Shown one piece after another: positions 25,899 through 42,745 of a DNA stretch of 64,000 nucleotides. Source of the stretch: Methanolobus vulcani (GTDB lineage: Archaea; Halobacteriota; Methanosarcinia; Methanosarcinales; Methanosarcinaceae); assembly GCF_006546655.1 (NCBI RefSeq), contig NZ_VIAQ01000015.1, positions 310,001 to 374,000 on the forward strand, given 5' to 3'. A program made the translations under genes and the position numbers. The notes under the pieces are model-generated. The model did not search any database. It was given only the letters and a program-made list of their open reading frames with translations, and had not been told where the DNA came from. How positions within the stretch are numbered: the first letter of the stretch is position 1; the number at the start of each line of letters is the position of its first letter.

Positions 25899-27659
25899 TT
25901 ACTGATCCGGATTCATTTTCTGAATTCTCTGGACTTTATCCAGTATCTTCTTGTCGTATAGCTTGACTATGTCACTACGGGTGATGATTCCAAGTAATTT
26001 AGTGTCATCTGATCTTGACACCACTGGGAGTCTGCCTATATCTTTTGCTGCAAGGCGTTTCAGTACAGTATTCAGTGTTTCATCCTGGTAGGCAACTGCA
26101 ACCTCCTTGGTGCATATTTCTGTGATAGCTTTTTCCAGTTCATCATGGCCAACTTTATCCCTTACGTCTTTAAGAGTTACAATTCCTGAAAGCTGTCCAT
26201 TAGAATCAAGTACAGGAAAACCTGCGTGTCTGCTTGATTGCATAAGTGCGATGAGTGCACCCACATTCTTGTTCTCTGAAACAGTCTGAACATTATGTTT
26301 CATTGCATCCTTTACAAGCAATGCTTCCATAATGTCGACCTCTCTTCCTTTCCTGATGGTAAATCCTCTGCGGCGTAGTCCTTCTGTGAATATGGATTCA
26401 GAACTAATTGAACTGGATATGACATTACTGACAACACATGCCAGCATGATTGGGAGTATCATATTGTAGTCTCGCGTCAGTTCGAAAAGAATTAAAATAG
26501 AAGTAAGAGGTGCCCGGCTTGTTCCTGCAAAGACAGCTCCCATTCCTACAAGAGCGTATGCGCCTGATTCTGCTGTGACATCAGGGAACATTCCATGGAC
26601 TATTGATCCGTAGCTTCCTCCCATCATTGCTCCTACAAAAAGAGCAGGTACAATTGATCCGCCTGAACCGCCGGAACCCATGGTAAATGAGAATGCAATG
26701 ATCTTCAAAAAAATCAGCAAAAACATAATTTTTAAAGTAAGATTCCCATTGAGGGCATCTGTTATCACATCATAACCGACACCAAAGACCTGTGGATAGA
26801 AAAATCCGATAAGTCCTACCAAAAGTCCTCCTATAGCAGGTTTAATCACAGGATGGATCTGCAGGGAATCAAAGGCTTTGTGTGTGCTGAAAAGGGATCG
26901 CATTAGTAGTGCGGATGTTAGCCCTGCAATTATTCCCAGAAGCAGGTATAGGGCGAATTCATAGAACGGATTAACGAATTCATAAGAAGCAACTCCTATA
27001 TTCTCAACACCAAACACGAGACTTGATACAATTGTTGCAAAAACAGCTGACACAACAATAGGTATGAAACTGCTTGCTTCAAGTTCTCCAAGAATGACTT
27101 CAACAACAAAGACCACGCCTGCAAGAGGGGCGTTATATGCTGCTGCAATACTGCTTGCTGCACCACATCCAATCAGTATTTTAACTCTATTTCCGTGTAT
27201 TCTTAGTAAGCTGGCAAGTGAGGATCCAATTCCGGAACCTGCAAGGACAACTGGTGCCTCTTTTCCGGCGGAACCTCCTGACCCAATAGATATTATGGAT
27301 GCCAAAACTTCAAGAAATGCATTCCGGGCAGACATTTTACCGCTACGAAGGGCAGTTGCTTCTATAATCTCTTCAATATTATATCTTCTGGAATTGATAA
27401 AAAAATAAGCAAGAAGACCTACAAGGAGTCCGCCTATTGCAGGCAGTAATATTATGAAGTATCTTGATGTTTGTGATGCCGTTCCAAAAAAAGATTCGTG
27501 ACTGAAATCTAATAAGGTATCATAGAATACTATGGCAAGTCCGGTCAAAACTCCGATGACAACTGCAAGTGAGTTTGAGATCAGTGACTCAGTATGCAAC
27601 CAATGATATGTGTTTTGTTTTAATTTTTGGAAGGCAGTTTTTTCATCCAAAGAGTTCAT
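25899..27659 (-). CDS. ClC-family chloride channel/antiporter with two CBS domains
   Basis: A 586-residue membrane protein. The selectivity-filter motifs are GSGGSAGKEAPVV (usual GKEGP), GSGGSGGSIVPALFVGAMMG and a region ending GTSRAPLTSILILFELT. About 10-12 hydrophobic helices span residues 20-430. Two CBS motifs follow (about 455-575; SRHAGFPVLDSNGQLSGIVT and IGRLPVVSRSDDTKLLGIIT), which probably bind adenine nucleotides. Whether it is a channel or a Cl-/H+ exchanger is not decided here. It is convergent with the MtaB gene. Confidence 0.92.
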   Translation of the reverse strand: MNSLDEKTAFQKLKQNTYHWLHTESLISNSLAVVIGVLTGLAIVFYDTLLDFSHESFFGTASQTSRYFIILLPAIGGLLVGLLAYFFINSRRYNIEEIIEATALRSGKMSARNAFLEVLASIISIGSGGSAGKEAPVVLAGSGIGSSLASLLRIHGNRVKILIGCGAASSIAAAYNAPLAGVVFVVEVILGELEASSFIPIVVSAVFATIVSSLVFGVENIGVASYEFVNPFYEFALYLLLGIIAGLTSALLMRSLFSTHKAFDSLQIHPVIKPAIGGLLVGLIGFFYPQVFGVGYDVITDALNGNLTLKIMFLLIFLKIIAFSFTMGSGGSGGSIVPALFVGAMMGGSYGSIVHGMFPDVTAESGAYALVGMGAVFAGTSRAPLTSILILFELTRDYNMILPIMLACVVSNVISSSISSESIFTEGLRRRGFTIRKGREVDIMEALLVKDAMKHNVQTVSENKNVGALIALMQSSRHAGFPVLDSNGQLSGIVTLKDVRDKVGHDELEKAITEICTKEVAVAYQDETLNTVLKRLAAKDIGRLPVVSRSDDTKLLGIITRSDIVKLYDKKILDKVQRIQKMNPDQ

Positions 27660-28026
27660 CTCTATTCATAATGGGTGGCAGTTGTAACATGTACATTATA
27701 GATATATTTTTTGAATCACTATTTTTATCTATCATAACATTGATTATGTTCCAATTGTCAATGCATTACTGATGTATTCATATCTTCAAAATATTAGTAT
27801 ATAAGTGCATACTATAATAATGCACTATTATTTATAAAAACGCAGATATTGAATACTTTTATAATATATCAGGATATATTGATAAGTGGAGTAATGTGGG
27901 GGCATCAGTGATACTACTGAATGTCCGTAAAAGCAATAGACGTAGTTGTATTTGTGGTTGTGTACAGCTCAAAATGTAGTATATGATATATCGGACTCAG
28001 ATCGCAGATATTTCAAGGGTGAGAGT
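27660..28026. other. Divergent promoter region with a long leader for the first giant surface protein
   Basis: A 367-base AT-rich gap. The promoter-like ATTGAATACTTTTAT at 27848-27862, repeated before the third surface-protein gene, lies 179 bases before ATG 28027, so the leader is long. Two tiny ORFs sit in it: a five-codon one at 27894-27911 behind GTGGAG, and a 21-codon one at 27921-27986 without a clear ribosome-binding site. Whether they are translated is unknown. Confidence 0.45.
27848..27877 (+). promoter_or_regulatory. Shared promoter motif, copy 1
   Basis: ATTGAATACTTTTATAATAT then ATCAGGATAT. The first 15 bases and the TATCAG block are identical to the copy at 35548-35576. The CTTTTATAAT part can serve as a TATA box. 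A weaker match, AATAGCTTTAT, occurs near 32842 before the middle gene. Confidence 0.5.
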
Positions 28027-31000
28027 ATGCATCCCTTTATAAAAAACAGTAAAGAAAACGGGGTATTGAATTATATCAGGGTGTTATTGTCGATTTCGAT
28101 AGTTCTATCGATATTTAACCCGATGCTTGTAGCAAGTGCAGCACCAAGTAGCCCTGTAATTGTAGGTAACACAACAGGCAATTTCTGGGTTCTCCATGAT
28201 TGGGAACCTATTAATGGAGATAATATTACGGACGGTTACAATGTTAGTTACAACGATACATGGACCTACGTAACTGAATCACAATTTAATCATACAGAAT
28301 TGAATGCACATGAATGGTCCAATATTACCATCTATGCTTACAACATAAGCAGTTCCACCATGTCAACTGGTGTTGTGGATAAGGTTCAGGTTCCAAACAA
28401 TCCGATCTTTATCGAAGATGTTGATCCTTCCCTCACCGTTAATGTGGGCGAAACAGTTTATGTGGATGCCAATTTCACCGATGAAGATGGTGATACTGCT
28501 ACATTTGAATGCAATCAGAGTGCTGAGCTGTTCACCGATTTTGATGCTGTAAACGGTACGGGCTCCTGGACTCCAGTGAATTCTGGAACTTACTACGTCA
28601 ACTTCACAGTTTCTGATAATTATGGATCAAGTGATTTCGCTATAATGCGCATCACTGTCAACGAAGTAACTCCTGATATTTACACCCCTGCGACCCCTGT
28701 TAACTTCGTCACTTCAACCGGTAATTTCTGGGTTCTTCATAACTGGGCTACAGGAACTGGAAATGTAACTGATGGATACAATGTCAGTTACAATGGAACC
28801 TGGTACAATACAACCGATTCAACCTATTCTGAGTTCAACACAACAAATCTGAATGCACATGAATGGTCTAACATTACAGTTTACGCTTACAATGCTACTA
28901 GCTCCGTTCTTTCATCACCTGGAATTGAAAGCAATGTTCAGATCCCAAACAATCCAGTTAGTATCGAAGATGTTGATCCTTCTCTCACGGTTGATGTAGG
29001 CGAAACCATTTATGTGGATGCCAATTTCACCGATGAAGATGGTGATAATCCAACATTCACCTGCAACTCCAGTGATTTTACTGACTTTGACAATGCAAAT
29101 GGTACTGGTTCCTGGATTCCAATGAATGCTGGTACTTACTCTGTAAACTTTACAGTTTCTGATGATTACGGATCAAGTGATTTCGCAATTATGACCATCA
29201 CTGTTAATGAAGTAGTACCTCCAGTTTATACTCCGGCAGCTCCAGTTAACTTCGTCAATACAACCGGTAATTTCTGGGTTCTTCATAACTGGGCTGCAGG
29301 AACTGGAAACATAACTGATGGATACAATGTAAGTTACAATGGAACCTGGTACAATATTACCGATTCAACCGATTCAGAGTTCAACACTACAACTCTGTCT
29401 CCACATAGCTGGTCAAACATCACAGTTTACGCTTACAATGCTACTAGCTCCATTCTTTCATCCGGAGTTGAAAGCAATGTCCAGATCCCAAACAATCCGG
29501 TCAGTATCGAAGATGTTGAATCCATTTATCATCTTGATAAGGGAGACACTCTGAATATCGATGCAAATTATACCGATGCAGATAATGATAGTGCGATATT
29601 TATCTCTGATAACGCCATCATTAAAATTGATTCATCATCAGGTGTAATCGGCTGGACTCCAAAGGTCAAGGAGGCTGGAACTTATTATGTTAATCTAACC
29701 GTATCAGATAATTATGGCTCTGAAGATTCACAGCTTGTAACGATTTCAGTAGCACAGAACAATGCTCCAGTGCTTGCAACAATTGATTCCCAGTCAATAC
29801 CAGAAGGTCAGGAACTTGCATTCTCTCTCAATGCAACAGATGCCGATGATGATACTCTTACTTATAATGTAACCGGCCTTCCTTCAGGTGTAATAGATGC
29901 CAATGGTAATTTCTCCTGGACTCCAGATTATGATATGGCAGATGACTACACTGCCAACTTCAGCGTCTCCGATGGTGAGGATATCGTCTATCAGGAAGTT
30001 GCTATCACTATAACAAACACTAACAGACTTCCGGTATTCACAGCAATTGAAGATCAGGTTATAAGTGAAGGTGAGACTCGGTCTTTCGCACTCAATGCTA
30101 CGGATGATGATGGTGATTCTCTCACATACGACGTAACCGGTCTTCCTTCAGGTGTAATAGATGCCAATGGTAATTTCTCCTGGACTCCAGATTATGAGAT
30201 GGCAGGTGACTATACTGCCAACTTCAGTGTAACAGATGGTGAAGATACTGTCTATCAGGAAGTTACTGTCACTGTAACAAACACTAATCGTGCACCTGTT
30301 ATCTCTTCAATTGAAGAACAGTCTGTCTATGAAAATCATGAGCTTAATTTCACTCTCGTTGGTAGTGATCTTGACAGTGATGACACCCTTACTTACTTTA
30401 TGAGTGATCTTCCAGCAGAAGCAACTTTGAATGAAACTACTGGTGACTTCTCCTGGACACCTGATTATGATACAACTACTGATTCCGTAATATTTAATGC
30501 AAATTTCACGGTTTCTGACGGCAAGGATTCTGTTTATCAACATGTGATAATCACCGTTTACAACACCAACAGAGCCCCGGAGTTTCCAGAATTCGGAATA
30601 GTTTATGCAAAAGAGGGAACAGAACTTGTATTGAATATCAGTGCAGTAGATCCTGATGGTAATTATCTTGAATACACTACGGATGCGAACTTTGGTACTA
30701 TAAGTGGTACAAACTTTGAATGGACTCCTGCTTTCACTGATTCCGGTTCTCACTATGTGGAGTTCAATGTTTCAGATGGTTCACTGAGCAATGTAACTGT
30801 GGTAACCATAGTTGTAGAGGATGTTAACCTTGCACCGGAAATAGACGCCGATTCGGTCAATCCGTATTATATTTTGGACGTAGGAGGAACTGTTTCCTTC
30901 AAGATTGTAGCATCTGATCCAGATGATAATCAAATTACTTATAACGTAACAGGATTGCCAGAAAGTGCAAATACCAGTCTTGATTCAAGCACGGGTGCAT

Positions 31001-32742
31001 TCAGCTGGACACCTGTGTCTGCTGATGGTAATGAGATTTTCAATGCTGTTTTCACAGTATCTGATGGACATCTTTCAGACTCTGTAGAAACTATATTTGC
31101 AGTTGCTGTGCCCAACAACCCACCAGTTTTGCAGGATATCGATCAGCAACAGGTAAATGAAACAGGGTATTTGAGGATTCAACTCAATGCAACTGATGAG
31201 GATGATGGTGATTCACTGATTTACAATGCAACAGAAATGCCAGATGGATCTACATTTGATGAAATAAATGGCGTATTTGAGTGGACTCCTTCCTATGAAC
31301 AAAGTGGAACTTACTCCGTGACATTCAGTGTAACAGATGGAATGGTAACTGATAAGGAAAAGGCATTTATCATAGTTACTAATGTGAACAGAGCCCCATC
31401 ATTTGGAATAATGCCAGATTACACGGTAAATGAGTCTGAAGAATTGAGTATCAAACTTAATGGAAGCGATCCTGATGGTACTACTCCAACTTATAGTGAT
31501 GATGTATCATATGGTTCAATAAGTGGTGATACTTTCACCTGGACACCAGGATATACTGCAAACCAGACATCGAATGGAACCTATAAAATAAACTTTACAG
31601 TTTCAGATGGTGAGTTTAGTGATGATACTGTTGTGACAGTTTATGTAAATGACGTGAATGCTCCTCCTGTATTCTGGACCATTGGCTCAAAGAGCGTTGA
31701 AGAAGAGGATGAACTTAGTTTTAACCTTACAGCAACCGATGTAGATGATGATACTCTGACATATTCTGCTCAGAACATGCCCGATAATGCAAGTCTTGAT
31801 AGTTCAACAGGAGAGTTTAGTTGGACACCTATAGATGGCGAGGCAGGATCATATTCTGTGATTTTCTACGTCACTGATGGTATTGACAATGATTATGAGA
31901 CAGTCACCATTACCGTTACTGAAACATCATCCAGCTCTAGCTCAAGTTCCAGCTCAAGCAGCAGTGGTGGCGGAGGAGGAGGTGGAGCTCTGTCTACTGG
32001 TGAAAACGTTGATAACATTGATTTCAAAGACTATACCCTAGAGTCTGTTGTAAGGGATGTCGAAACGACATTCTCTTTCTATAAGGAGAACAACAGCATT
32101 GTATCCCTGAGCTTTACTTCTGAGCTCAACGGTGGACAGGTCAAGGCAGTGATCGAAATGCTGAAGGATACTTCCTCTCAGGTAAAGTCTGTAGCACCAG
32201 GTGATGTTTACCAGAACATGAACATCTATACAGATTCAAACCTTGGAGACGATGTAATAGGTGACCGCATCATCAACTTCAAGGTTGAAAAGGTCTGGGT
32301 AGAAGAGAATAATATCGATGTATCGTTCATCACACTCTGCAGATACAACAGTGGTGAATGGGCTACACTTTCAACGGAAGCAACAGGAGAGGATGAATAC
32401 TACTATTACTTCACTTCCACAACACCCGGATTCTCTCCGTTTGCAATATCAAGTGTTGATCCATCTGCACTTGCCGCGGAAGCTTCAGCTGAGAAGATTG
32501 AAGCAACTTCAGTGGATATAGGACAATTGCAGTCTACAGAAGATAATGATGAATCACCATTGGATTCAGGAGCTGCTCTCCCACAAAAGAAAAGTTCATC
32601 ATTCCCATACCTGATAATCATAGGGCTTATAGGTGTGGTGGCTATCGGAGTAGTTGGTTACAGAAACAAGGATTACTACGAGAAAGTGAAGTTGCAGCTA
32701 GGAAATCCGGATGGAAAGCGTTACAGACGTTCCAAAAAATAA
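28027..32742 (+). CDS. Giant secreted surface protein: Fn3-like modules, about 11 Ig-like repeats, PGF-pre-PGF domain, membrane anchor
   Basis: A 1571-residue protein starting at ATG 28027, with AGGGTGAG upstream. A signal peptide occupies residues 1-45 (hydrophobic VLLSISIVLSIF, cut near ASAAP). Three modules containing GNFWVLH(D/N)W are each followed by Ig-like repeats, and more repeats follow to residue about 1295. Eleven FxWTP-type motifs followed by VSDG or VTDG mark He_PIG/cadherin-like domains. A long Ser run then Gly run (about 1301-1322) leads to a PGF-pre-PGF-type domain (about 1328-1480), then a transmembrane helix (about 1525-1545) and a basic tail (KRYRRSKK). Many N-x-S/T sites suggest glycosylation. 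It is likely a cell-envelope adhesin or stalk protein. Confidence 0.88.
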   Translation: MHPFIKNSKENGVLNYIRVLLSISIVLSIFNPMLVASAAPSSPVIVGNTTGNFWVLHDWEPINGDNITDGYNVSYNDTWTYVTESQFNHTELNAHEWSNITIYAYNISSSTMSTGVVDKVQVPNNPIFIEDVDPSLTVNVGETVYVDANFTDEDGDTATFECNQSAELFTDFDAVNGTGSWTPVNSGTYYVNFTVSDNYGSSDFAIMRITVNEVTPDIYTPATPVNFVTSTGNFWVLHNWATGTGNVTDGYNVSYNGTWYNTTDSTYSEFNTTNLNAHEWSNITVYAYNATSSVLSSPGIESNVQIPNNPVSIEDVDPSLTVDVGETIYVDANFTDEDGDNPTFTCNSSDFTDFDNANGTGSWIPMNAGTYSVNFTVSDDYGSSDFAIMTITVNEVVPPVYTPAAPVNFVNTTGNFWVLHNWAAGTGNITDGYNVSYNGTWYNITDSTDSEFNTTTLSPHSWSNITVYAYNATSSILSSGVESNVQIPNNPVSIEDVESIYHLDKGDTLNIDANYTDADNDSAIFISDNAIIKIDSSSGVIGWTPKVKEAGTYYVNLTVSDNYGSEDSQLVTISVAQNNAPVLATIDSQSIPEGQELAFSLNATDADDDTLTYNVTGLPSGVIDANGNFSWTPDYDMADDYTANFSVSDGEDIVYQEVAITITNTNRLPVFTAIEDQVISEGETRSFALNATDDDGDSLTYDVTGLPSGVIDANGNFSWTPDYEMAGDYTANFSVTDGEDTVYQEVTVTVTNTNRAPVISSIEEQSVYENHELNFTLVGSDLDSDDTLTYFMSDLPAEATLNETTGDFSWTPDYDTTTDSVIFNANFTVSDGKDSVYQHVIITVYNTNRAPEFPEFGIVYAKEGTELVLNISAVDPDGNYLEYTTDANFGTISGTNFEWTPAFTDSGSHYVEFNVSDGSLSNVTVVTIVVEDVNLAPEIDADSVNPYYILDVGGTVSFKIVASDPDDNQITYNVTGLPESANTSLDSSTGAFSWTPVSADGNEIFNAVFTVSDGHLSDSVETIFAVAVPNNPPVLQDIDQQQVNETGYLRIQLNATDEDDGDSLIYNATEMPDGSTFDEINGVFEWTPSYEQSGTYSVTFSVTDGMVTDKEKAFIIVTNVNRAPSFGIMPDYTVNESEELSIKLNGSDPDGTTPTYSDDVSYGSISGDTFTWTPGYTANQTSNGTYKINFTVSDGEFSDDTVVTVYVNDVNAPPVFWTIGSKSVEEEDELSFNLTATDVDDDTLTYSAQNMPDNASLDSSTGEFSWTPIDGEAGSYSVIFYVTDGIDNDYETVTITVTETSSSSSSSSSSSSSGGGGGGGALSTGENVDNIDFKDYTLESVVRDVETTFSFYKENNSIVSLSFTSELNGGQVKAVIEMLKDTSSQVKSVAPGDVYQNMNIYTDSNLGDDVIGDRIINFKVEKVWVEENNIDVSFITLCRYNSGEWATLSTEATGEDEYYYYFTSTTPGFSPFAISSVDPSALAAEASAEKIEATSVDIGQLQSTEDNDESPLDSGAALPQKKSSSFPYLIIIGLIGVVAIGVVGYRNKDYYEKVKLQLGNPDGKRYRRSKK
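28150..29760 (+). repeat. Three tandem copies of a ~540-base module inside the first surface protein
   Basis: Units begin near 28150, 28690 and 29226. Each encodes GNFWVLH(D/N)W, TDGYNVSYN, WSNIT(I/V)YAYN, then VQ(V/I)PNNP and an Ig-like repeat. Units 2 and 3 are much alike at DNA level, which points to recent duplication. A second internal duplication of about 90 bases (LPSGVIDANGNFSWTPDY) occurs at about 29876 and 30140. Confidence 0.8.
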
Positions 32743-32812
32743 ATGAAATGTATTTGGCAGCGGATGGTTTATTTCTGCTGTCCTATTTTTGTATCCGATT
32801 AAAAAAATAACT

Positions 32813-32830
32813 ATCCACATATATGTGGAT
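32813..32830. promoter_or_regulatory. Perfect 18-base palindrome between surface protein genes
   Basis: ATCCACATATATGTGGAT is exactly self-complementary. It lies 71 bases after the first surface gene and about 10 bases before the likely promoter (AATAGCTTTAT near 32842) of the second, so it could be an operator or part of a terminator. No T-run follows closely, which favours an operator. Confidence 0.4.
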
Positions 32831-32938
32831 TATTATACTCAAATAGCTTTATCCCACTAAAAGATAAAATAGAGTAGACTATAGAGGGGTTTGATAGCAA
32901 ACAGAACATACCTTCTCGTTTAGTTGGAGACGGGAAAA

Positions 32939-35461
32939 ATGGATAGTAATTTAAAAATAGAGCGTTCCTTTTTAAGATTTCTGCTAATTCTTATACTTCT
33001 CATATCATTACAATCAACGTCAGTTGCAGCTGTAACTGATACTCCTGTTCTTGATGTTATAGGTGATCATTCGGTCAATGAGAACAGTTTGCTGACTTTC
33101 ACATTATCTGCCGATGATCCCGAGAATGATACTCTTGAGTTTTCCTGTCCAAATATTGATTCGATTGCTGGCGCAACCCTGGATTCTTCTTCCGGTCTGT
33201 TTGAATGGACCCCCACTTATGAACAGGCTGGTGAATATCTTGTTCAGTTCGTGGTTTCCGATGGTTCCCACATTGATTCTGAATACATCACCGTTACAGT
33301 AAAAAACACAAATCGTGCACCGGTTTTTTCCGCGATTGCCGATTCTTCAACAAATGAGGATGAAGAGATTCAATTAATACTTGAGGCAACGGATGAGGAC
33401 TCAGATATACTTGCTTTTTCAAAGGATGTCTCATTCGGAACCCTTGAAGGTAATATTTTCACGTGGACACCTGATTATGATGACCAGGGTGAACATGAGA
33501 TTGTTTTCAGTGTAACTGACGGTTCTTCCTCAGTGAGCCAGACCGCTTTGATAACAGTTTCAAATGTGAACAGAGAGCCGGTTCTATTTTCCATAAGTGA
33601 TGTTTCAGTTCCTCAAAACACACCTGTTACAATTCAGCTAGAAGCTTTTGACGCTGATGGTGATGAGCTTACTTACACAATGGTGAGTAATCTACCAACA
33701 GGTGCATCATTTGATTCGGAAACCGGTTTGTTCCAATGGCCTACCCCTTCTGTATCTATAAAAGTTTTCACTTTTAGTGTAACTGATGGTATTGGTTCTG
33801 ATAGCTCGACTGCAATTGTTGTGATAGGCGATTCAAAAACCCCTCCAACAATGAGTACCATAGGCCCTCAATCCGTAGATGAGAACTCAGAACTTTCATT
33901 TATGATTTCTGCTGAATTTTATACAAAGAAACCTAGTTTCTCATTCCCAGATGGTTTTCCTTCTAATCCTACTATAACTATGCCAGACAGTTCTTCTATT
34001 CAGGTCACATGGACACCTTCTTATGAAGAGTCCGGTAGTTACAAGGTAGAATTCCAAATTTCAGACGGTACTTCTTATTCAACATATCAGGTAGTTGACA
34101 TCACGGTTAATGATGTGAACCGTGCTCCTGTAATAGATGCTGTAGATGATTATACTGTAAGTGAAAATGGAATTCTCTATGTTAACTTGAGTGCTACTGA
34201 TCCTGACGGAGATACTCTCACCTATTCAACAGATAGTAGCCTTGGTATTGTAAGGGGTAACACATTCATATGTACGCCGGATTATGCTGATGCAGGTGTG
34301 TATGATGTACAATACACCGTCTCAGATGGAAATCTGAAAAATAGTACGACAGCAACAATCACAGTTACAGATTCAAATATGCCTCCAAAGATTAACTCCA
34401 TAAGTCCGATGGAGGTAGTGGTAAACAATACACTGGATTTCTCTCTTTCAGTATCTGATGATGATGAAGGCGAATCATTCTCCTATAAAGCATTGGACAT
34501 GCCTTCAACTGCATCATTCGATGAGTCAGAAGGCATCTTTGAATGGACACCATCCAGTGAGGATGTTGGTGATTACTCAGTTAGTTTCTATGTAAGTGAC
34601 AGTTCTCAGGAAGACTATGAGACAGTTTCCATAACTGTCACTGAAACTTCTTCCTCTTCTTCTTCTAGCACGACCTCCAGCTCAAGCAGCAGTGGTGGCG
34701 GTGGCGCTCCACTGACCTCTGGAGAGGAATTCGATAACATTGATTTCAAAGACTATTCCCTTGAGTCTGTTGTGAGGGATGTCGAAACGACATTCTCCTT
34801 CTATAAAGAGAACAACAGTATAGTTTCCCTGAGCTTTACTTCAGAGCTCAACGGTGGACAGGTCAAGGCAGTTATCGAAGTACTGAAGGATACCTCTTCT
34901 CAGGTAAAGTCTGTAGCACCAGGTGATGTTTACAAGAATATGAACATCGACCTCGATTCTAATCTGGGAGATGATGTAATAGGTGACCGTGTCATCAACT
35001 TCAAGGTTGAAAAGGTCTGGGTAGAAGAGAATAATATCAATGTGTCTTTCATCACGCTCTGCAGATACAACAGTGGAGGATGGGATATGCTTTCAACTGA
35101 AGCAATGGAAGAGGATGACGGATATTATTACTTCACTTCCACAACACCCGGATTCTCTCCGTTTGCAATATCAAGTGTTGACCCATCTACACTTACCACG
35201 GAAGCTTCAGCTGAGAAGATTGAAGCAACTTCAGTGGATATAGAACAATTGCAGTCTACAGAAGATGATGAATCCCCATTGGACTCAGGAGCAGCTCTCC
35301 CACAAAAGGAAAGTTCATCATACTCATACCTGGTAATCATAGGACTTATTGGTGTGGTGGCTATCGGAGTAGTTGGTTACAGAAATAGAGAAAACTACGA
35401 GAAAGTGAAGTTGCAGCTTGGAAACCCTGATGGTAAGCGTTACAGGCGTATTAAAAAGTGA
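32939..35461 (+). CDS. Large secreted surface protein: six Ig-like repeats, PGF-pre-PGF domain, membrane anchor
   Basis: An 840-residue protein related to its two neighbours. The start ATG 32939 (GGAG about 10 bases upstream) gives a signal peptide (FLRFLLILILLISLQ, cut near SVAAV). Six Ig-like repeats span residues about 35-565. A Ser/Gly linker (about 568-594), a PGF-pre-PGF-type domain (about 599-750), a transmembrane helix (about 791-811) and a basic tail follow. From the linker on, it is nearly identical to the first surface protein, while the repeats differ strongly. The leader has a small TTG-started ORF behind GAGGGG (32883-32924 region). Likely envelope-anchored; ligand unknown. Confidence 0.88.
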   Translation: MDSNLKIERSFLRFLLILILLISLQSTSVAAVTDTPVLDVIGDHSVNENSLLTFTLSADDPENDTLEFSCPNIDSIAGATLDSSSGLFEWTPTYEQAGEYLVQFVVSDGSHIDSEYITVTVKNTNRAPVFSAIADSSTNEDEEIQLILEATDEDSDILAFSKDVSFGTLEGNIFTWTPDYDDQGEHEIVFSVTDGSSSVSQTALITVSNVNREPVLFSISDVSVPQNTPVTIQLEAFDADGDELTYTMVSNLPTGASFDSETGLFQWPTPSVSIKVFTFSVTDGIGSDSSTAIVVIGDSKTPPTMSTIGPQSVDENSELSFMISAEFYTKKPSFSFPDGFPSNPTITMPDSSSIQVTWTPSYEESGSYKVEFQISDGTSYSTYQVVDITVNDVNRAPVIDAVDDYTVSENGILYVNLSATDPDGDTLTYSTDSSLGIVRGNTFICTPDYADAGVYDVQYTVSDGNLKNSTTATITVTDSNMPPKINSISPMEVVVNNTLDFSLSVSDDDEGESFSYKALDMPSTASFDESEGIFEWTPSSEDVGDYSVSFYVSDSSQEDYETVSITVTETSSSSSSSTTSSSSSSGGGGAPLTSGEEFDNIDFKDYSLESVVRDVETTFSFYKENNSIVSLSFTSELNGGQVKAVIEVLKDTSSQVKSVAPGDVYKNMNIDLDSNLGDDVIGDRVINFKVEKVWVEENNINVSFITLCRYNSGGWDMLSTEAMEEDDGYYYFTSTTPGFSPFAISSVDPSTLTTEASAEKIEATSVDIEQLQSTEDDESPLDSGAALPQKESSSYSYLVIIGLIGVVAIGVVGYRNRENYEKVKLQLGNPDGKRYRRIKK

Positions 35462-35547
35462 GAGCTAACACAGCTTTCCAGTTTTTTTATTTATCTCTAA
35501 AACCGGCTTAATTTAGATATATTAATTATTAGTATTATATTTATGTT

Positions 35548-35576
35548 ATTGAATACTTTTATTACTTATCAGATAT
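35548..35576 (+). promoter_or_regulatory. Shared promoter motif, copy 2
   Basis: ATTGAATACTTTTAT followed by TACTTATCAGATAT, the counterpart of the element at 27848. It lies 153 bases before ATG 35701, giving the third surface gene a long leader as well. Confidence 0.5.
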
Positions 35577-35648
35577 TACGTTTATTAGCAGTGGGTGGTA
35601 TTACTTTGTTGTTAAAGGTTAGCTACTCCAGATGATCATATCATATGG

Positions 35649-35734
35649 TCAGAAGGAGGTATATGATCTTCCTTCTGAGAATGCTTTGTGGGGGTAAGGC
35701 ATGTTTCCCAGTGGAACAGAAAAATGTAATCTAG
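35649..35734 (+). promoter_or_regulatory. Leader hairpin over a Shine-Dalgarno site, with a short ORF overlapping the next start
   Basis: TCAGAAGGA (35649-35657) pairs perfectly with TCCTTCTGA (35670-35678); one G-T and one G-C pair extend the stem. The sequence AAGGAGGT (35653-35660) lies in the stem, and an ATG (35663) in the loop opens a 23-codon ORF ending TAG 35734, in a different frame from and overlapping the main ATG 35701. This arrangement could couple or attenuate translation. Confidence 0.45.
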
Positions 35735-38700
35735 TAAAATCTTTGTTGACATGCGTAGCTTTGCTGATAATCGTATTGCCTGCACTTTCCAGTGCAGTTT
35801 CCAATGAGTCCGTAACGATCGGGAATACTGTTGTAAATCCAGGTACATCTTTCTCGTTACCGATATTTGTTGGAAATGTAACGAATATGAGTTCACTGTC
35901 CATGGTTCTTGTCTTTGATCCATCTTTGCTATCTGCCGACAGTATAGTTGTAAACGATACCTTGTCAGGGTCGAAACTAACGTATTATCTTAATAATTCC
36001 ACAGGTTTTGCAAATATGACCTTGAGTTCCGTAGATGTTTCTGCGGAAGGACAGGTCCATGTTGCTGACGTTGTCTTCTTTGCTCTTACAAGTGGTATGT
36101 CCGATATAATACCAGAGAATGTTTCTTTTGAAAACGATACAATCTTTTATCCTGCAGAATTTGTTTCAAATGGGTCTGTGAGGATCAATTATCCGCCGGT
36201 GATCAATGATATTGATGATAAGGTGATCATTGCAGGATCAGAATTGTCATTCTCTGTATCTGCAACTGATGCTGATGACCTTGTACTCACTTATGGTGTC
36301 GAAGGTTTGCCTTTCGGATATGACCTGAATTTTGAAACAGGGTATTTCAAGTGGATTCCTGCAGAGGCTGATATTGGTACTCATATTGTAAATTTTTCGG
36401 TATCGGATAGTTATGCCTTTGACTTTACACAGGTTAATATCACTGTAAATGAACTCGTGATCGTCGATACTCCTCCGCAGCTGGAACCAATTGATAACAA
36501 GTATGTTAATGAGAATGAGACTCTCTCTTTCAATGTAACTGCCATTGATCCTGAGGAAGATGCAATAGAATATTCCGCATCAATGCTGCCTGAGGATTCT
36601 TCTTTTGATACTTCTTCCGGGGCTTTCATCTGGATGCCGGATTTTGATGATGCAGGCACCTATCTGGTGGAATTCACCGCAACAGCTAATGATCTTTCAG
36701 ATTCGGAAAATGTTACCATTACTGTCAATAATGTGAACCATGATCCCAAACTTTTGAATATCAAAAGCCAAACCGTAAATGAGGGAAGTATTCTGGAATT
36801 CACGATCGGTGCGAGTGATCCTGATGGAGATACACTTGAGTTCGGGATGAACGGTCTTCCACCTGAAGCAACTTTGAATGCTGTTACAGGTGAATTCTTC
36901 TGGACCCCTGATTATGAGGATGCCAAAGTTTACGACGTTGAATTTTCCGTATCTGATGGTTCACTTTCAGATTCGGAGAATATCACAATCACTGTGACTA
37001 ATGTAAATCGGGTTCCTGTACTTGATTTAATTGGTGACCGGAGCGTTTCTGAGGATTCAGCATTGATCATCACACTCTCAGCAACTGATGCTGATGAAGG
37101 AGATTCACTGACCTACCATACCAATGCAACATTTGGAACTCTTGATGGTAATGTGTTTATTTGGGATACGGGATACGGTGATGCTGGAAGGTATATCGTT
37201 GAGTTTAATGTGACCGATGGCATGGCTGTTGATTCTGAGATTGTGGAAATCACAGTTGATGATGTAAACAGAGCACCTGAACTTGCTCATATAGGTGCTC
37301 AGAGTGTCAATGAGGCTGAGATCCTGACCATCACACTCTCAGCAACTGATGCTGATGAAGGGGACTCACTGACCTACAATACCAATGCAAGCTTTGGAAC
37401 TCTTGATGATAATGTGTTTACTTGGGATACGGGATACGGTGATTCTGGAACCTATGTCGTTGAGTTCAATGTGAGCGATGGCATAGCAGTTTATTCAGAG
37501 GTTGTTGAAATCACAGTTGATGATGTAAACAGAGCGCCTGACCTTGATTTGATTGGTGATAGGAGGGTTTCAGAGGATTCACCATTGATCATCATCCTCT
37601 CAGGCAGTGATGCTGATAAAGATCCCTTGACCTATGGTACCAATGCAAGCTTCGGAACTCTTACAGATAACGTGTTCGTGTGGACACCTGATTATGATGA
37701 CGCTGGAACTTACATTGTTGAGTTCAGTGTAAGCGATGGTCTTTCAGTAGACTCCGAGATAATTGCTATCACCGTTACTGATTTTAACCGTGCTCCTGAA
37801 CTTGATCTGATTGGTGATCGGAGCGTTTCAGAGGATTCCCTTTTGAGCATTGCTCTCTCAGGTAGTGATGCTGATAATGATTTCTTGATCTACAATACCA
37901 ATGCCAGTTTCGGAACTCTTACTGGTAATGTTTTCGAGTGGACACCTGATTTTGGTGATTGCGGAACCTATATTGTTGAGTTCAGTGTAAGCGATGGTCT
38001 TTCAGTAGATTCCGAGATAATTACTATCACTGTTACTGATGTTAACCGTGCCCCCATGCTCATGGTAATAGGTTCGCAATCAGTAGATGAAAATAAGACT
38101 CTTACAATTATCCCGGATGCGACGGACGATGATGACGACACACTTTATTATTCACTGGTAGATTCCCCATCAGGTTCTAAAATAGATGAAACCACCGGCA
38201 AGTTCATCTGGACACCCACTTATGACCAGGCTGGTAGCTATGTGATCAGGTTCGTAGTTTCAGATGGATTCCTGAAAGATACGGAAGATGTAACCGTTAC
38301 AGTTAACGATGTGAACAGGCCCCCGGTCATGAATGCACCGGATAAGGTAGTTGTATCGGAGAACGCAACTGTTATTCTAGATTTGAATGCTTCTGATCCG
38401 GATGACGATGTCCTTGAGTATTCAACGGATGCATCTTTTGGTACCTTGCAGGGAACTCTCTTTTCATGGACTCCTGGTTATGAGGATGCAGGTATATATC
38501 CTGTCACGTTCACCGTGAACGATGCCGAGTTCAAGGTAAGCAAAACGGTTACGATCAATGTCACGAACTCCAATTCCGCACCTGTACTTTATTCCATATC
38601 GGATATATTGGTCAACGAACTTGAAACGGTAAATATTGCTCTGGAAGCTGTTGATATAGATGGGGACGAACTGAAATTCTCAAAGGATGTGCAATATGGT

Positions 38701-40554
38701 GATCTTGAAGGTAATATCTTCACCTGGACTCCCGGGATCAACGACAGTGGTTTCCACAAAATACTGTTCACAGTTACCGATGGTCAATTGTCAGATTCCA
38801 AAACCGGTACAATTGCAGTCGGCAATACCAATATCCCACCTATTATAGGATATATGGAAGATCAACAGGTAAAAGAAAACGAGATGTTGGTCTTCACTTT
38901 AAATGCATCGGATATTGATAACGACACACTTACGTATTCGGCTTCAGACCTGCCTGCAGGGGCTGATATAGGAATAAGTAATGGTACCTTCACCTGGATT
39001 CCGACATATGACCAGGCTGGCACTTATACAGTAGAGTTCATGGTATCTGATAAAATATACACCGCATTTGATACGGTGCTGATAGATGTGGAAAATGTCA
39101 ATCGTGGGCCTGCATTCGGCTATATCTCAGGTCACACCATAAATGAAACAGAAACTCTGGTGATCGATCTCAACGCAACTGACCCGGATAGGGATGCCAT
39201 CACCTTCTCGACAACAAGTAAAAAAGGAGATGTTATAGGTGATTCATTTATGTGGACCACAGGATATTATGACAGTGGGGATTATGATATCGACTTTAAG
39301 GTCACAGATGGTCATCTGACAGACAACACCACTGTTCATATCAGCGTGTGCCAGACCAATATGCCGCCGGAGTTCGAATATATCGGTTCGTATATCATAT
39401 CTGAATACGAGACATTACAATTCTCTGTAAAGGCAAATGATGGGGATAATGACCCATTGACCTATTCGGTCAGCGGATTGCCACAAGTTTCATCTTTTAA
39501 TACCTCAACAGGGGATTTCATCTGGAAACCGGATTACACACAATCCGGTACATATTCTGTTGAATTCCAGGTGACGGACGGGAAATTGAATGCTTCAAGG
39601 GCTGTGTCCATCAGTGTCATGGATGTGGATAAAACCTCAAATCCGAGTATATATGGATTTACAAGCAGCAGCAGCAGTTCGGGTGGCGGGGGCTCGTCAG
39701 GTGGTTCTGAAGATTATGAGAATATCGACTACATGGACTACTCTATGAAATACATAACACAGGGAATGGACATAGTATATGAGTTCCCAAATGATGAAAA
39801 TGACATCGAGTATGTAAAATTCCGTGCACAAAAAGCCGCCAGTCTGACAAAAGCAGTGATCGAGATACTGAAGGACCGGTCAGCCCTCGTCAGCAGCAGT
39901 CCTTCAGGAACTGTATATCGTTATATCAATATATGGGTAGGAGATGCCAAGTTCAATTCTGCCGGTTACTTCTCATCGGCGCAGATCAGCTTCAAGGTCG
40001 AGAAAAAGTGGCTTAGTGAAAACAATGCAGACCCTGCAACCATAAAGTTGTACAGGTATTCAGCTGGTTCCTGGAAGGAACTTCAAACTTCAAAGACAGG
40101 TGTTGATGATACTTATTATTACTACAAGGCCCTGACATCTGGATTCTCCTCTTTCTCAATTGTAAGTAAGGAAAAAATCCCGGTTTCCATAAGTACTGTA
40201 AAAAAGAGTACGGTTGAAGACGTAAAATACAGCTATGAAATCGAGTCAAGATTTGAGCCAGAGGTGTTCGATTCAACTGCAACGGCAACAAATATGGCAC
40301 TCGAGCCCAGCTCAACAAGCTCTCTAAATCTGGGCATGTTCCTGATGGGAATTTTTGGCATAATAGCTATTGGCTCTGTACTGTCTTACAGGTCTAGAAA
40401 TGAATCTTTAGTACTTTCCAGATATTATAGTACCTTATATGCAGTTTCTATTTCTGTAAAGAATGCCACAAAGCTGGAGAATATCAGGTCTACAGATTAC
40501 AGATCTCTCTACGATATAATAATTGCTGAAATAAAGGGAGAACTAAAAAAGTGA
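35701..40554 (+). CDS. Giant secreted surface protein: cohesin-like domain, about 13 Ig-like repeats, PGF-pre-PGF domain, membrane anchor
   Basis: A 1617-residue protein, ATG 35701 with GGGGGT upstream. The signal peptide (VALLIIVLPALSS) is followed at about residues 34-160 by a cohesin-like beta domain: VTIGNTVVNPGTSFSLPIFV, LVFDPSLLSADSI, VHVADVVFFAL. Thirteen Ig-like (He_PIG/cadherin-type) repeats span about 164-1313, several nearly alike (LIGDRSVSEDS, GTYIVEFSVSDGL). The Ser/Gly linker (about 1321-1336), PGF-pre-PGF-type domain (about 1339-1493) and transmembrane helix (about 1541-1563) follow. Unlike its neighbours, it has about 50 further residues inside the cell. No dockerin partner was seen in the window. 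Confidence 0.87.
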   Translation: MFPSGTEKCNLVKSLLTCVALLIIVLPALSSAVSNESVTIGNTVVNPGTSFSLPIFVGNVTNMSSLSMVLVFDPSLLSADSIVVNDTLSGSKLTYYLNNSTGFANMTLSSVDVSAEGQVHVADVVFFALTSGMSDIIPENVSFENDTIFYPAEFVSNGSVRINYPPVINDIDDKVIIAGSELSFSVSATDADDLVLTYGVEGLPFGYDLNFETGYFKWIPAEADIGTHIVNFSVSDSYAFDFTQVNITVNELVIVDTPPQLEPIDNKYVNENETLSFNVTAIDPEEDAIEYSASMLPEDSSFDTSSGAFIWMPDFDDAGTYLVEFTATANDLSDSENVTITVNNVNHDPKLLNIKSQTVNEGSILEFTIGASDPDGDTLEFGMNGLPPEATLNAVTGEFFWTPDYEDAKVYDVEFSVSDGSLSDSENITITVTNVNRVPVLDLIGDRSVSEDSALIITLSATDADEGDSLTYHTNATFGTLDGNVFIWDTGYGDAGRYIVEFNVTDGMAVDSEIVEITVDDVNRAPELAHIGAQSVNEAEILTITLSATDADEGDSLTYNTNASFGTLDDNVFTWDTGYGDSGTYVVEFNVSDGIAVYSEVVEITVDDVNRAPDLDLIGDRRVSEDSPLIIILSGSDADKDPLTYGTNASFGTLTDNVFVWTPDYDDAGTYIVEFSVSDGLSVDSEIIAITVTDFNRAPELDLIGDRSVSEDSLLSIALSGSDADNDFLIYNTNASFGTLTGNVFEWTPDFGDCGTYIVEFSVSDGLSVDSEIITITVTDVNRAPMLMVIGSQSVDENKTLTIIPDATDDDDDTLYYSLVDSPSGSKIDETTGKFIWTPTYDQAGSYVIRFVVSDGFLKDTEDVTVTVNDVNRPPVMNAPDKVVVSENATVILDLNASDPDDDVLEYSTDASFGTLQGTLFSWTPGYEDAGIYPVTFTVNDAEFKVSKTVTINVTNSNSAPVLYSISDILVNELETVNIALEAVDIDGDELKFSKDVQYGDLEGNIFTWTPGINDSGFHKILFTVTDGQLSDSKTGTIAVGNTNIPPIIGYMEDQQVKENEMLVFTLNASDIDNDTLTYSASDLPAGADIGISNGTFTWIPTYDQAGTYTVEFMVSDKIYTAFDTVLIDVENVNRGPAFGYISGHTINETETLVIDLNATDPDRDAITFSTTSKKGDVIGDSFMWTTGYYDSGDYDIDFKVTDGHLTDNTTVHISVCQTNMPPEFEYIGSYIISEYETLQFSVKANDGDNDPLTYSVSGLPQVSSFNTSTGDFIWKPDYTQSGTYSVEFQVTDGKLNASRAVSISVMDVDKTSNPSIYGFTSSSSSSGGGGSSGGSEDYENIDYMDYSMKYITQGMDIVYEFPNDENDIEYVKFRAQKAASLTKAVIEILKDRSALVSSSPSGTVYRYINIWVGDAKFNSAGYFSSAQISFKVEKKWLSENNADPATIKLYRYSAGSWKELQTSKTGVDDTYYYYKALTSGFSSFSIVSKEKIPVSISTVKKSTVEDVKYSYEIESRFEPEVFDSTATATNMALEPSSTSSLNLGMFLMGIFGIIAIGSVLSYRSRNESLVLSRYYSTLYAVSISVKNATKLENIRSTDYRSLYDIIIAEIKGELKK

Positions 40555-40645: not shown

Positions 40646-42745
40646 ATGCTGGAAAAAATGTTCAATCCAGATTCTGTAGCCGTTATAGGCGCGTCCAGGA
40701 AAGAAGGTAAGGTAGGAAGAGCTGTACTTGATAATCTCATGCAGAACAGTAAGCTCAAGATCATACCGATCAATCCGAAAAGTGATGAGATCCTGGGGCT
40801 TCCGTGTTATCATAATATACTTGATGTCCCGGAATCGATAAAGGTCGATCTTGCAATAATCGTGGTTCCTGCAAAGTTGGTTCCCGGTTCCATTGATGAA
40901 TGTGGCCAGGCAGGTGTAAAAAATATAATAATTATATCAGCCGGTTTCAAGGAAGCAGGTATCGAAGGTGCACGCCTCGAACGCGAATGTATAGCATTAT
41001 GTGAAAAATATGGAATTAAGCTCATAGGTCCGAACTGTTTAGGTATAATTGATACTGCTTCGGGACTCAATGCATCCTTTGCGCCTAATATGGCATACAA
41101 AGGAAACATAGCCATGATGTCTCAGTCAGGTGCGATATGTTCTGTAACTCTGGACTGGGCGGAAAGGATCGGTGTCGGCTTTTCTAAATTTATAAGTCTT
41201 GGTAATAAAGCGGTTCTTTCGGAAAATGACTTTTTGCAATTGTTTGAAAATGACTCATCTACAGCAGTGATTGCTGCGTATCTTGAAGGTGTAAAAGAAG
41301 GCCCGGAATTCATAAAGATCGCCGAGCGTGTATCTCATTCAAAACCAATTGTTGTTGTTAAATCAGGGCGAACCGCAGTGGGTTCTAAAGCAGTTTCATC
41401 ACACACCGGTACACTGGCAGGTTCGGATGCCGCATATAACGCTGCATTTAAACAAAGTGGTGTATTGCGTGCAGATTCTATTGAAGAGATGCTCGATTAC
41501 AGCCGTGCCTTTTCAGTTTGTCCTTTGCCAAAAGGCAGGAACATTGCTATAATAACCAATGCAGGCGGTCTTGGTATACTGGCTGCTGATGCATGTTACT
41601 ATGCAGGTCTTACGATAGCCTCTTTTGAAGAGAAAACTGTTGAAAGGTTGAGGGAGAAATTACCTCCTGCAGCAAATTTCTATGATCCCGTAGATGTTTT
41701 GGGAGATGCAAGTCCTGATCTCTATGAATATGCTCTGGATGTTGTCCAGGATGATGCTAATGTAGATGGTATTCTTCTTCTTGTTTCTCCTCAGTCAACG
41801 ACAGATGTTCCAGGTATTGCGGAAAAGATTGCAACAACAATTAAAGGATCTAAAAAACCGATACTCTGTAACTTTGCAGGTGGCACCAGGATAGCACTTG
41901 GTGAGGATATACTCAGTAAACATGGTATTCCAAACTATTCTTCTGCAGAAAGGGCTGTTGCAAGTATGGATGCCCTCTGTACCTATTATAAAATAAAGAA
42001 TCACAAACGCGGTGACCCGGAAGAGATGCCGGCTGACAGGGAATATGCCCGTTCTTTCATAGAGAGCGCCTCCAAAAACAAAAGGAGGGTGCATGGTCTT
42101 GAATCAATGGACATACTGAAAGCTTACGATATCCCGGTTGTGGATGCCAGGGTCGCAAAGGACCTCCATGAGGCTGTTGAAGCGGCAGAGGATATGGGAT
42201 ATCCGGTTGTTATGAAGATTCTGTCACCTGATATTTCACATAAGAGCGATGTGGGTGGAATCCGTCTGAATCTCAAGCATGCTGATGAAGTTGAACGTGC
42301 TTACAATTCCATGATGTCGGATGTGAGGCACTACATGCCTGATGCTATTATTACAGGTGTTCAGCTTCAGAAAATGATGAGCGGAGGAAAAGAAGTTATC
42401 ATTGGAATGGACAGAGATCCGCAATTCGGTCCACTGCTTATGTTCGGACTCGGAGGAACATATGTCGAGTTTCTGAAAGATGTTTCTTTTGCAGTTGCTC
42501 CTGTCACCAGGGAGGAGGCAAAACACATGGTGTCTTCGATAAAGACCTATCCGCTGATAGCAGGTGTAAGAGGAGAAGCCGCGTCAGATATTGATTCAAT
42601 TATCCAGACACTGCTTAAGGTGTCGCAGCTTGTAACGGATTTTCCGGAAATTTTAGAATTTGAAATTAATCCTTTAATGGTAATGCCCGAAGGTCAGGGT
42701 TGTGTTGCAATGGATATCAGGTTCACCCTGAACCTAAATGAATAA
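40646..42745 (+). CDS. acd: ADP-forming acetyl-CoA synthetase, fused alpha-beta
   Basis: A 699-residue acyl-CoA synthetase (NDP-forming) that makes ATP and acetate from acetyl-CoA, ADP and phosphate, reversibly. The alpha part has the CoA-binding start FNPDSVAVIGASRKEGKVG, IGPNCLGIID, MMSQSGAICS and the phospho-histidine H253 in SSHTGTLAGSDAA. The beta part, an ATP-grasp domain at about 480-699, includes YPVVMKILSPDISHKSDVGG, GMDRDPQFGPL and EFEINPLMV. The next gene, a Pta-like regulator, begins 12 bases downstream, a common pairing in archaea. It faces acsA across a terminator. Confidence 0.92.
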   Translation: MLEKMFNPDSVAVIGASRKEGKVGRAVLDNLMQNSKLKIIPINPKSDEILGLPCYHNILDVPESIKVDLAIIVVPAKLVPGSIDECGQAGVKNIIIISAGFKEAGIEGARLERECIALCEKYGIKLIGPNCLGIIDTASGLNASFAPNMAYKGNIAMMSQSGAICSVTLDWAERIGVGFSKFISLGNKAVLSENDFLQLFENDSSTAVIAAYLEGVKEGPEFIKIAERVSHSKPIVVVKSGRTAVGSKAVSSHTGTLAGSDAAYNAAFKQSGVLRADSIEEMLDYSRAFSVCPLPKGRNIAIITNAGGLGILAADACYYAGLTIASFEEKTVERLREKLPPAANFYDPVDVLGDASPDLYEYALDVVQDDANVDGILLLVSPQSTTDVPGIAEKIATTIKGSKKPILCNFAGGTRIALGEDILSKHGIPNYSSAERAVASMDALCTYYKIKNHKRGDPEEMPADREYARSFIESASKNKRRVHGLESMDILKAYDIPVVDARVAKDLHEAVEAAEDMGYPVVMKILSPDISHKSDVGGIRLNLKHADEVERAYNSMMSDVRHYMPDAIITGVQLQKMMSGGKEVIIGMDRDPQFGPLLMFGLGGTYVEFLKDVSFAVAPVTREEAKHMVSSIKTYPLIAGVRGEAASDIDSIIQTLLKVSQLVTDFPEILEFEINPLMVMPEGQGCVAMDIRFTLNLNE

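Follow-up and report, generated by a model that had tools for sequence, protein, structure and literature searches.

What do three very large immunoglobulin (Ig)-repeat genes, lying side by side on the chromosome of a methanogen, contribute to its cell surface, and are they a constant or a changing part of it? The genes are found in a 64,000-nucleotide window (contig positions 310,001–374,000) of the 2.92-Mb genome of Methanolobus vulcani. Our analysis indicates that they probably form an island of genes for cell-surface stalks of the adhesin type, which is specific to Methanolobus, recombines fast and occupies a fixed chromosomal site.

The three neighbouring open reading frames are all on the plus strand (27946–32742, 32924–35461 and 35701–40554). 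Taking the first ATG as the likely start in each case (28027, 32939 and 35701), they encode proteins of 1571, 840 and 1617 residues, referred to here as genes 1, 2 and 3. With an Ig model trained on these loci, the counts are 11, 6 and 13 Ig repeats respectively, in exact agreement with a preliminary description of this DNA. Each protein has a hydrophobic segment at its N-terminus, one PGF-pre-PGF domain, and a single C-terminal transmembrane (TM)-like segment, as judged from hydropathy. The profile searches proposed in that description gave Pfam He_PIG/Big_9 matches with E values from 1e-40 to 1e-75 (He_PIG scores of 228, 136 and 227 bits for genes 1, 2 and 3, above the Pfam cut-offs), TIGR04213 scores of 149.9, 154.4 and 169 bits against a curated cut-off of 28, and a Cohesin match above its cut-off in gene 3. 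The common C-terminal arrangement of PGF-pre-PGF-type domain, TM helix and basic tail is confirmed. The proteins are strongly acidic (Asp/Glu 15–16%, Lys/Arg 3–5%) and contain 59, 6 and 37 N-glycosylation sequons. Scans for promoters and terminators of bacterial type are not informative for archaeal DNA. The features of the array and its flanks are as follows.

25899–27659 (−): conserved left flank, ClC chloride channel with CBS domains
28027–32742 (+): gene 1, 1571 residues; signal peptide, three Fn3-like modules and 11 Ig repeats, Ser/Gly linker, PGF-pre-PGF domain, TM helix, basic tail
28135–29490 (+): gene 1 tip, three Fn3-like modules (approximately 28135–28395, 28654–28947 and 29200–29490) alternating with Ig repeats 1–3
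28396–31911 (+): gene 1 Ig repeats 1–11, the first three alternating with the Fn3-like modules (Ig model; Pfam Big_9/He_PIG)
32002–32454 (+): gene 1 PGF-pre-PGF domain, probably GAIN/ZU5-like (TIGR04213, 150 bits; fold via the gene 2 homologue)
32590–32667 (+): gene 1 TM helix (hydropathy)
32704–32730 (+): gene 1 cytoplasmic tail motif NPDGKRYRR (island-specific motif)
32939–35461 (+): gene 2, 840 residues, chimeric; six Ig repeats, linker, PGF-pre-PGF domain, TM helix, tail
33038–34633 (+): gene 2 Ig repeats 1–6, of gene 2 type (72–78% identity to the orthologues in G005, G017 and G024)
34634–34723 (+): gene 2 Ser/Gly linker, holding the recombination breakpoint (switch in sliding identity)
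34724–35176 (+): gene 2 PGF-pre-PGF domain, of gene 1 type (89% identity to gene 1; structural model from 34715)
35153–35158 (+): gene 2 Phe-Ser (model residues 147–148), at the predicted position of the GAIN/FIIND scissile bond (structural register)
35312–35386 (+): gene 2 TM helix (hydropathy)
35423–35449 (+): gene 2 cytoplasmic tail motif NPDGKRYRR (motif search)
35701–40554 (+): gene 3, 1617 residues; cohesin-like tip, 13 Ig repeats, linker, PGF-pre-PGF domain, TM helix, longer cytoplasmic tail
35812–36090 (+): gene 3 cohesin-like domain (Pfam PF00963, 32.4 bits against a cut-off of 24.1)
36187–39612 (+): gene 3 Ig repeats 1–13, adjacent copies up to 87–89% identical in DNA (Ig model, repeat comparison)
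39709–40167 (+): gene 3 PGF-pre-PGF domain (TIGR04213, 169 bits)
40315–40392 (+): gene 3 TM helix (hydropathy)
40393–40551 (+): gene 3 cytoplasmic tail, a separate conserved type (..DYRxIYxxKxAEIKERQK in relatives)
40646–42745 (+): conserved right flank, CoA-binding/ATP-grasp acyl-CoA ligase of the ADP-forming type

The same ClC and acyl-CoA ligase flanks occur in nearly all of 27 Methanolobus genomes, with syntenic records that include M. vulcani, M. bombayensis, M. profundi and M. psychrotolerans. The sample holds one genome per species, and several are drafts in which the island is split or masked. A scan of genome contigs with gene 3 as the query confirmed no relative; the relatives were then found through the flanking ligase. 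In the 19 genomes that have both flanks on one contig, the interval between them runs from 3166 to 18253 bases (median 10162), a roughly six-fold range. Gene 3, with 13 Ig repeats in the window, has 14, 16, 24, 25, 28, 28, 29 and 30 in relatives (2.3-fold), and gene 1 has 0, 9, 11, 12 or 24 across the genus, so that the repeat number does vary between related genomes, a comparison suggested in the preliminary description. The gene 2 count is six in the window as well as in 11 relatives, and rises to seven in a deeper clade; either gene 2 or gene 3 is missing altogether in some species. Many repeats within a gene are at least 85% identical to one another (18 of 24 in gene 1 of G024, 9 of 16 in G004 and 6 of 14 in G002), with identities of up to 100%, which indicates that the expansion in these genes is recent. 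No copies at or above 85% identity were found within gene 2. The alternative named beforehand, a fixed and ubiquitous S-layer component with no variation, does not describe a locus with a six-fold range in length in a genome whose DUF1608 S-layer proteins are encoded elsewhere.

The sequence of gene 2 shows recombination within the island. Its anchor clusters with the gene 1 anchors and is 88–89% identical to gene 1 of the window, and its Ig part is 72–78% identical to the gene 2 orthologues of G005, G017 and G024. In windows of 30 columns, the protein upstream of the linker matches the G005 orthologue at 83–100%, and windows lying entirely downstream of it match gene 1 at 77–100%. The switch is abrupt and lies inside the Ser/Gly linker, the mark of gene conversion between neighbours: in the window, gene 2 is a chimera that carries an anchor copied from gene 1.

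Alleles of gene 2 have also been exchanged between species. In the flank tree, the window groups with G020, G001, G007, G005, G041 and G010 (support 100/100); in the tree of the gene 2 Ig part, the window and G005 group with G017 and G024. Constraining the Ig part to the flank grouping is rejected (approximately unbiased (AU) test, p=1.5e-4), as is constraining the flanks to the Ig grouping (p=1e-5). Identity to relatives is 79–93% in the flanks and 34–62% in many parts of the island. The modular character suggested earlier, with different tips on a common anchor, is upheld, and the modules are recombined both between genes and between species.

Across the genus, proteins of the gene 1 and gene 2 types end in a tail resembling G(N/S)xDGKRYRRxKK. 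NxDGKRYRR, searched for as degenerate DNA, occurs 43 times, in 21 of 24 Methanolobus genomes, and position or gene content places all 43 copies within the island. Neither 126 genomes of other genera nor the reversed pattern yielded a match. This genome has 15 TIGR04213 domains, and a tail of this type is absent from its other PGF-pre-PGF proteins; the tail of gene 3 is longer and of a different conserved type. One copy has Ser in place of Arg, and the 43 copies have 40 distinct DNA spellings, which implies that selection, rather than recent copying, has kept the peptide. A cytoplasmic partner of this tail is the simplest inference, although the analysis brought none to light. The PGF-CTERM signal (PF18204) has six sites in the genome and none in the array proteins, which appear to be held by one TM helix and the cytoplasmic tail rather than by an archaeosortase-processed signal. 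Ig-rich PGF-pre-PGF proteins are common in Methanosarcinales, and the kind of protein is therefore already known: the array shares its C-terminal domain, Ig-type ectodomain, secretion and membrane anchor with TIGR04213 surface proteins of Methanosarcinales and haloarchaea. It differs from them in having no PGF-CTERM signal and, in genes 1 and 2, in the island-specific tail.

The PGF-pre-PGF domain probably shares the GAIN/ZU5 fold, which we understand as a relationship and not as membership. An AlphaFold2 model of the gene 2 anchor, which starts at 34715 and was built from 14 sequences, has a pLDDT of approximately 95 over residues 10–160. The first three matches to this model in a Foldseek search of the PDB were the GAIN domain of CD97, the ZU5 domain of ankyrin-B and the GAIN domain of BAI3 (best E value 6e-4). 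On VIA re-alignment, rows 1–12 were all ZU5, GAIN or FIIND domains, with Z from 9.0 to 7.0, and the next, unrelated family scored 6.8. At the ends of the alignments, F147 of the model falls on residue 837 of 4dlq, 382 of 5kvm, 249 of 7qu8, 566 of 8hc0 and 1212 of 6x6a. According to the PDB sequences, the chains of 4dlq, 5kvm and 8hc0 end at the P1 Leu of the GPS, and residue 249 of 7qu8 is the GPS P1 Leu. By offset, S148 falls on residue 531 of CD97 (157 with 540) and 912 of BAI2 (155 with 919), both P1′; only the alignment ends were printed, so these offsets presume that the last ten residues are free of gaps, and the assignment of Ser531 of CD97 from its PDB sequence holds if the construct starts at residue 21. 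Residue 912 of BAI2 we take to be the Ser at P1′ of its GPS. NLRP1 is cleaved between F1212 and S1213 (PMC9700037).

The Phe is conserved in 65 of 65 PGF-pre-PGF domains and the Ser in 64 of 65. If the predicted fold is assumed, the pair is in register with P1/P1′ in seven solved structures, and TPGFSPFAI is also present in homologues from Methanohalobium and Methanomethylovorans at 34–38% identity. Cleavage is at SF/S in CARD8 and NLRP1 and at HF/S in PIDD (PMC3210808), and self-cutting members of the superfamily carry a His at P2 or a CxH motif (PMC3482391). Such an active site applies to GAIN, PIDD and Nup98, and FIIND relies on SF/S together with a His farther away. P2 in the PGF-pre-PGF domains is Gly, Ala, Val or Ile, with no conserved His and no CxH motif. 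A search of PDB sequences with the PGF-pre-PGF profile gave only a chance match (E value 0.31), and a Pfam scan of 14 of the domains at E values up to 10 found no match to GPS, GAIN or ZU5. The best local match from hhalign aligned S-x-F-A-I with the P1′ segment of GPS, with a score not above that of shuffles (23 of 100 column shuffles scored as high). Sequence profiles give no support to homology here, so the GAIN comparison is drawn only from structure and register; with the P2 His missing as well, self-cleavage at Phe-Ser seems to us unlikely.

The likeness to GAIN, ZU5 and FIIND might alternatively be a generic resemblance between β-sandwiches, in which case the conserved Phe-Ser would be a structural turn. 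The Z values of 7–9 are on the DALI scale and near the background of the aligner, the identity is 10%, and both the hhalign result and the lack of a P2 His or CxH motif agree with this view. It accounts poorly for the top 12 VIA rows all belonging to one superfamily, for the placing of F147 on P1 of the cleaved structures 4dlq, 5kvm, 7qu8, 8hc0 and 6x6a and of S148, by offset, on P1′ of CD97 and BAI2, and for the retention of both residues in nearly every domain. We regard a generic resemblance as possible but rather doubtful.

Given a shared GAIN/ZU5 fold, a further reading can be considered, namely that PGF-pre-PGF represents the GAIN/ZU5 domain in archaea and is itself autoproteolytic. The island would then encode diversified force-releasable surface receptors, with tip and Ig stalk held non-covalently at a self-cut Phe-Ser bond close to the membrane and the invariant NxDGKRYRR tail reporting engagement or tethering the stalk. 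This is a tentative proposal that we do not expect to hold; if true, it would provide an archaeal counterpart of the adhesion-receptor layout. As in adhesion G protein-coupled receptors, polycystin-1 ectodomains and ZU5/FIIND proteins, adhesive or PKD-type modules are followed by a domain of predicted GAIN/ZU5-like fold and then the membrane, with likeness also in the predicted position of the Phe-Ser bond. The array proteins differ in having one TM helix and not seven, and in lacking the P2 His, the GPS cysteines, GAIN subdomain A and significant sequence similarity. ZU5 autopeptidases are known from bacterial surface proteins (PMC3482391), where a ZU5-superfamily domain, as is predicted here, sits in large prokaryotic cell-surface proteins with adhesion modules; theirs has the CxH active-site motif, which is missing from the archaeal domain. 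To read PGF-pre-PGF as GAIN/ZU5-like is new, although a 2014 paper on GAIN, ZU5 and Nup98 may bear on this. If the fold assignment is true, the GAIN/ZU5/Nup98 autoproteolytic superfamily gains a domain that is very common on archaeal surfaces, and this would bear on where the base domain of adhesion receptors came from. The best viral match of the base domain model in BFVD was A0A5Q2W8E7, a protein of 175 residues (E value 5.8e-7, 16% identity).

At the other end of the stalk, the preliminary description had distinguished Fn3-like from cohesin-like tips; the second assignment is borne out, and the first is weaker. The Cohesin match of gene 3 is above its cut-off, and is partial (residues 38–130, profile positions 3–98 of 139). 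The gene 1 tip consists of three units of approximately 180 residues with 67–70% mutual identity; it scores 19.4 bits against Pfam fn3, under the cut-off of 25, and the AlphaFold2 model of its Fn3-like module has a pLDDT of only 43, too low for the fold to be read. In several relatives, the gene 1 position has a cohesin-like tip in place of these modules. The same genome encodes two dockerin proteins, a secreted Ig protein of 1120 residues (L101:1951-5313, +) and a CAP-domain protein of 314 residues (L102:1336-2280, +), which are possible partners of cohesin tips.

The array could on these grounds be a cellulosome-like scaffold, with the gene 3 tip docking the two secreted dockerin proteins onto the cell. 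The Cohesin score and the presence of both dockerin proteins in one genome favour this, but there is a single cohesin per stalk, genes 1 and 2 of the window have none, and the match covers only part of the profile. We consider a scaffold unlikely; dockerin docking is nevertheless compatible with an island of stalk genes, as one mode of tip binding. Cohesins and dockerins are known from the surface of anaerobic methanotrophic archaea (ANME; PMC9012536, PMC5244752), where cohesin-like surface proteins and dockerins are likewise encoded in one genome. Here, in contrast, a lone N-terminal cohesin is carried on a long Ig stalk within a variable island.

On the stalk reading, a signal peptide would export each protein, and a variable tip, cohesin-like or Fn3-like, would be displayed on an Ig-domain rod standing on a rigid PGF-pre-PGF base. 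The single TM helix with its conserved tail would hold the stalk, and the invariant tail may couple it to something inside the cell. If each Ig domain adds approximately 4 nm, the gene 3 stalk could reach approximately 50 nm here and more than 100 nm in relatives. What the tips bind may be partner cells, surfaces or secreted proteins that carry dockerins, and recognition is the likely role of the stalks. Diversification by recombination suggests selection, and changing partners, or viruses that use the stalks, may drive it. The architecture makes the earlier suggestion, a system for adhesion or cell aggregation, a reasonable one. Some points weigh against our interpretation: the sample is one genome per species, structural proteins associated with the S-layer could also vary, the fold of the base is inferred from one predicted model, and its hhalign comparison with GPS did not exceed shuffles.

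The array proteins might instead be structural or accessory parts of the S-layer or envelope, such as spacers or tethers between S-layer and membrane. Their membrane anchor, acidity, many glycosylation sites and presence across the genus would suit such a role, and a homologue on a Methanohalobium plasmid is annotated as S-layer. In the genome of the window, one frame (G000:C14:35708-37924, −) holds two PF07752 S-layer domains together with a PGF-pre-PGF domain, showing that the base domain also serves proteins of S-layer type. The three array proteins, however, have no Pfam match to PF07752 (the DUF1608 S-layer domain). The gene 3 stalk varies 2.3-fold while gene 2 is fixed, gene 2 or gene 3 is missing in some species, and alleles are exchanged, all of which is unlike a component of a lattice. 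We judge a structural role improbable.

Mainly neutral instability of repetitive coding DNA, by slippage and unequal crossing-over and without selection for diversity, is less probable still. In its favour, recombination comes easily to tandem repeats and low-complexity linkers, a Ser/Gly linker holds the breakpoint, and nearly identical adjacent repeats occur. Against it, the adjoining gene 2, with the same type of repeat, stays at six repeats in 12 species, the exchange of gene 2 between species and the swapping of tips exceed local instability, and the tails are invariant despite their 40 DNA spellings.

A precedent for a recombining island of this kind is VARTIG, a module of hypervariable Ig proteins in Thermococcales, for which the authors state that there is no comparable case outside that order (PMC8416519). 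Both are archaeal loci of Ig-domain surface proteins diversified by recombination between species. The organisms are unrelated, and the array has another domain order, anchor and host. Here the variation is in repeat number, tip and anchor, whereas VARTIG has a large Ig protein with a hypervariable C-terminal Ig domain, and changing downstream genes. What is new is the genus-wide variable island with its chimeric gene, and the island-specific tail. Methanolobus is a second archaeal lineage, beyond Thermococcales, with Ig-domain surface proteins that diversify by recombination, and archaeal cell recognition and the diversity of virus receptors become testable in cultivable methanogens. A search of viral contigs with the anchor profile confirmed none, and models of anti-phage systems gave no match.

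Some further observations concern the island and its surroundings. An IS66-family transposase lies between the first and second surface-protein genes of the G002 island (L054:3771-5087, −). In M. vulcani the flanking ClC frame contains one in-frame TGA (G041:C10:100405-102162), and an island gene of G008 contains one in-frame TAA (G008:C1:531316-532419); the genes may be pseudogenes, the stops may be errors of sequencing, or the frames may have been read past their true end. Elsewhere in the genome, two nearly identical PGF-pre-PGF domains occur in adjoining frames of 1245 and 1266 residues (G000:C1:78772-83080, −), a further tandem pair of surface genes, of recent origin. The window also encodes a sensor kinase of 1130 residues (49478–52870, +), in which an N-terminal MEDS domain is accompanied by several PAS domains and GAF.

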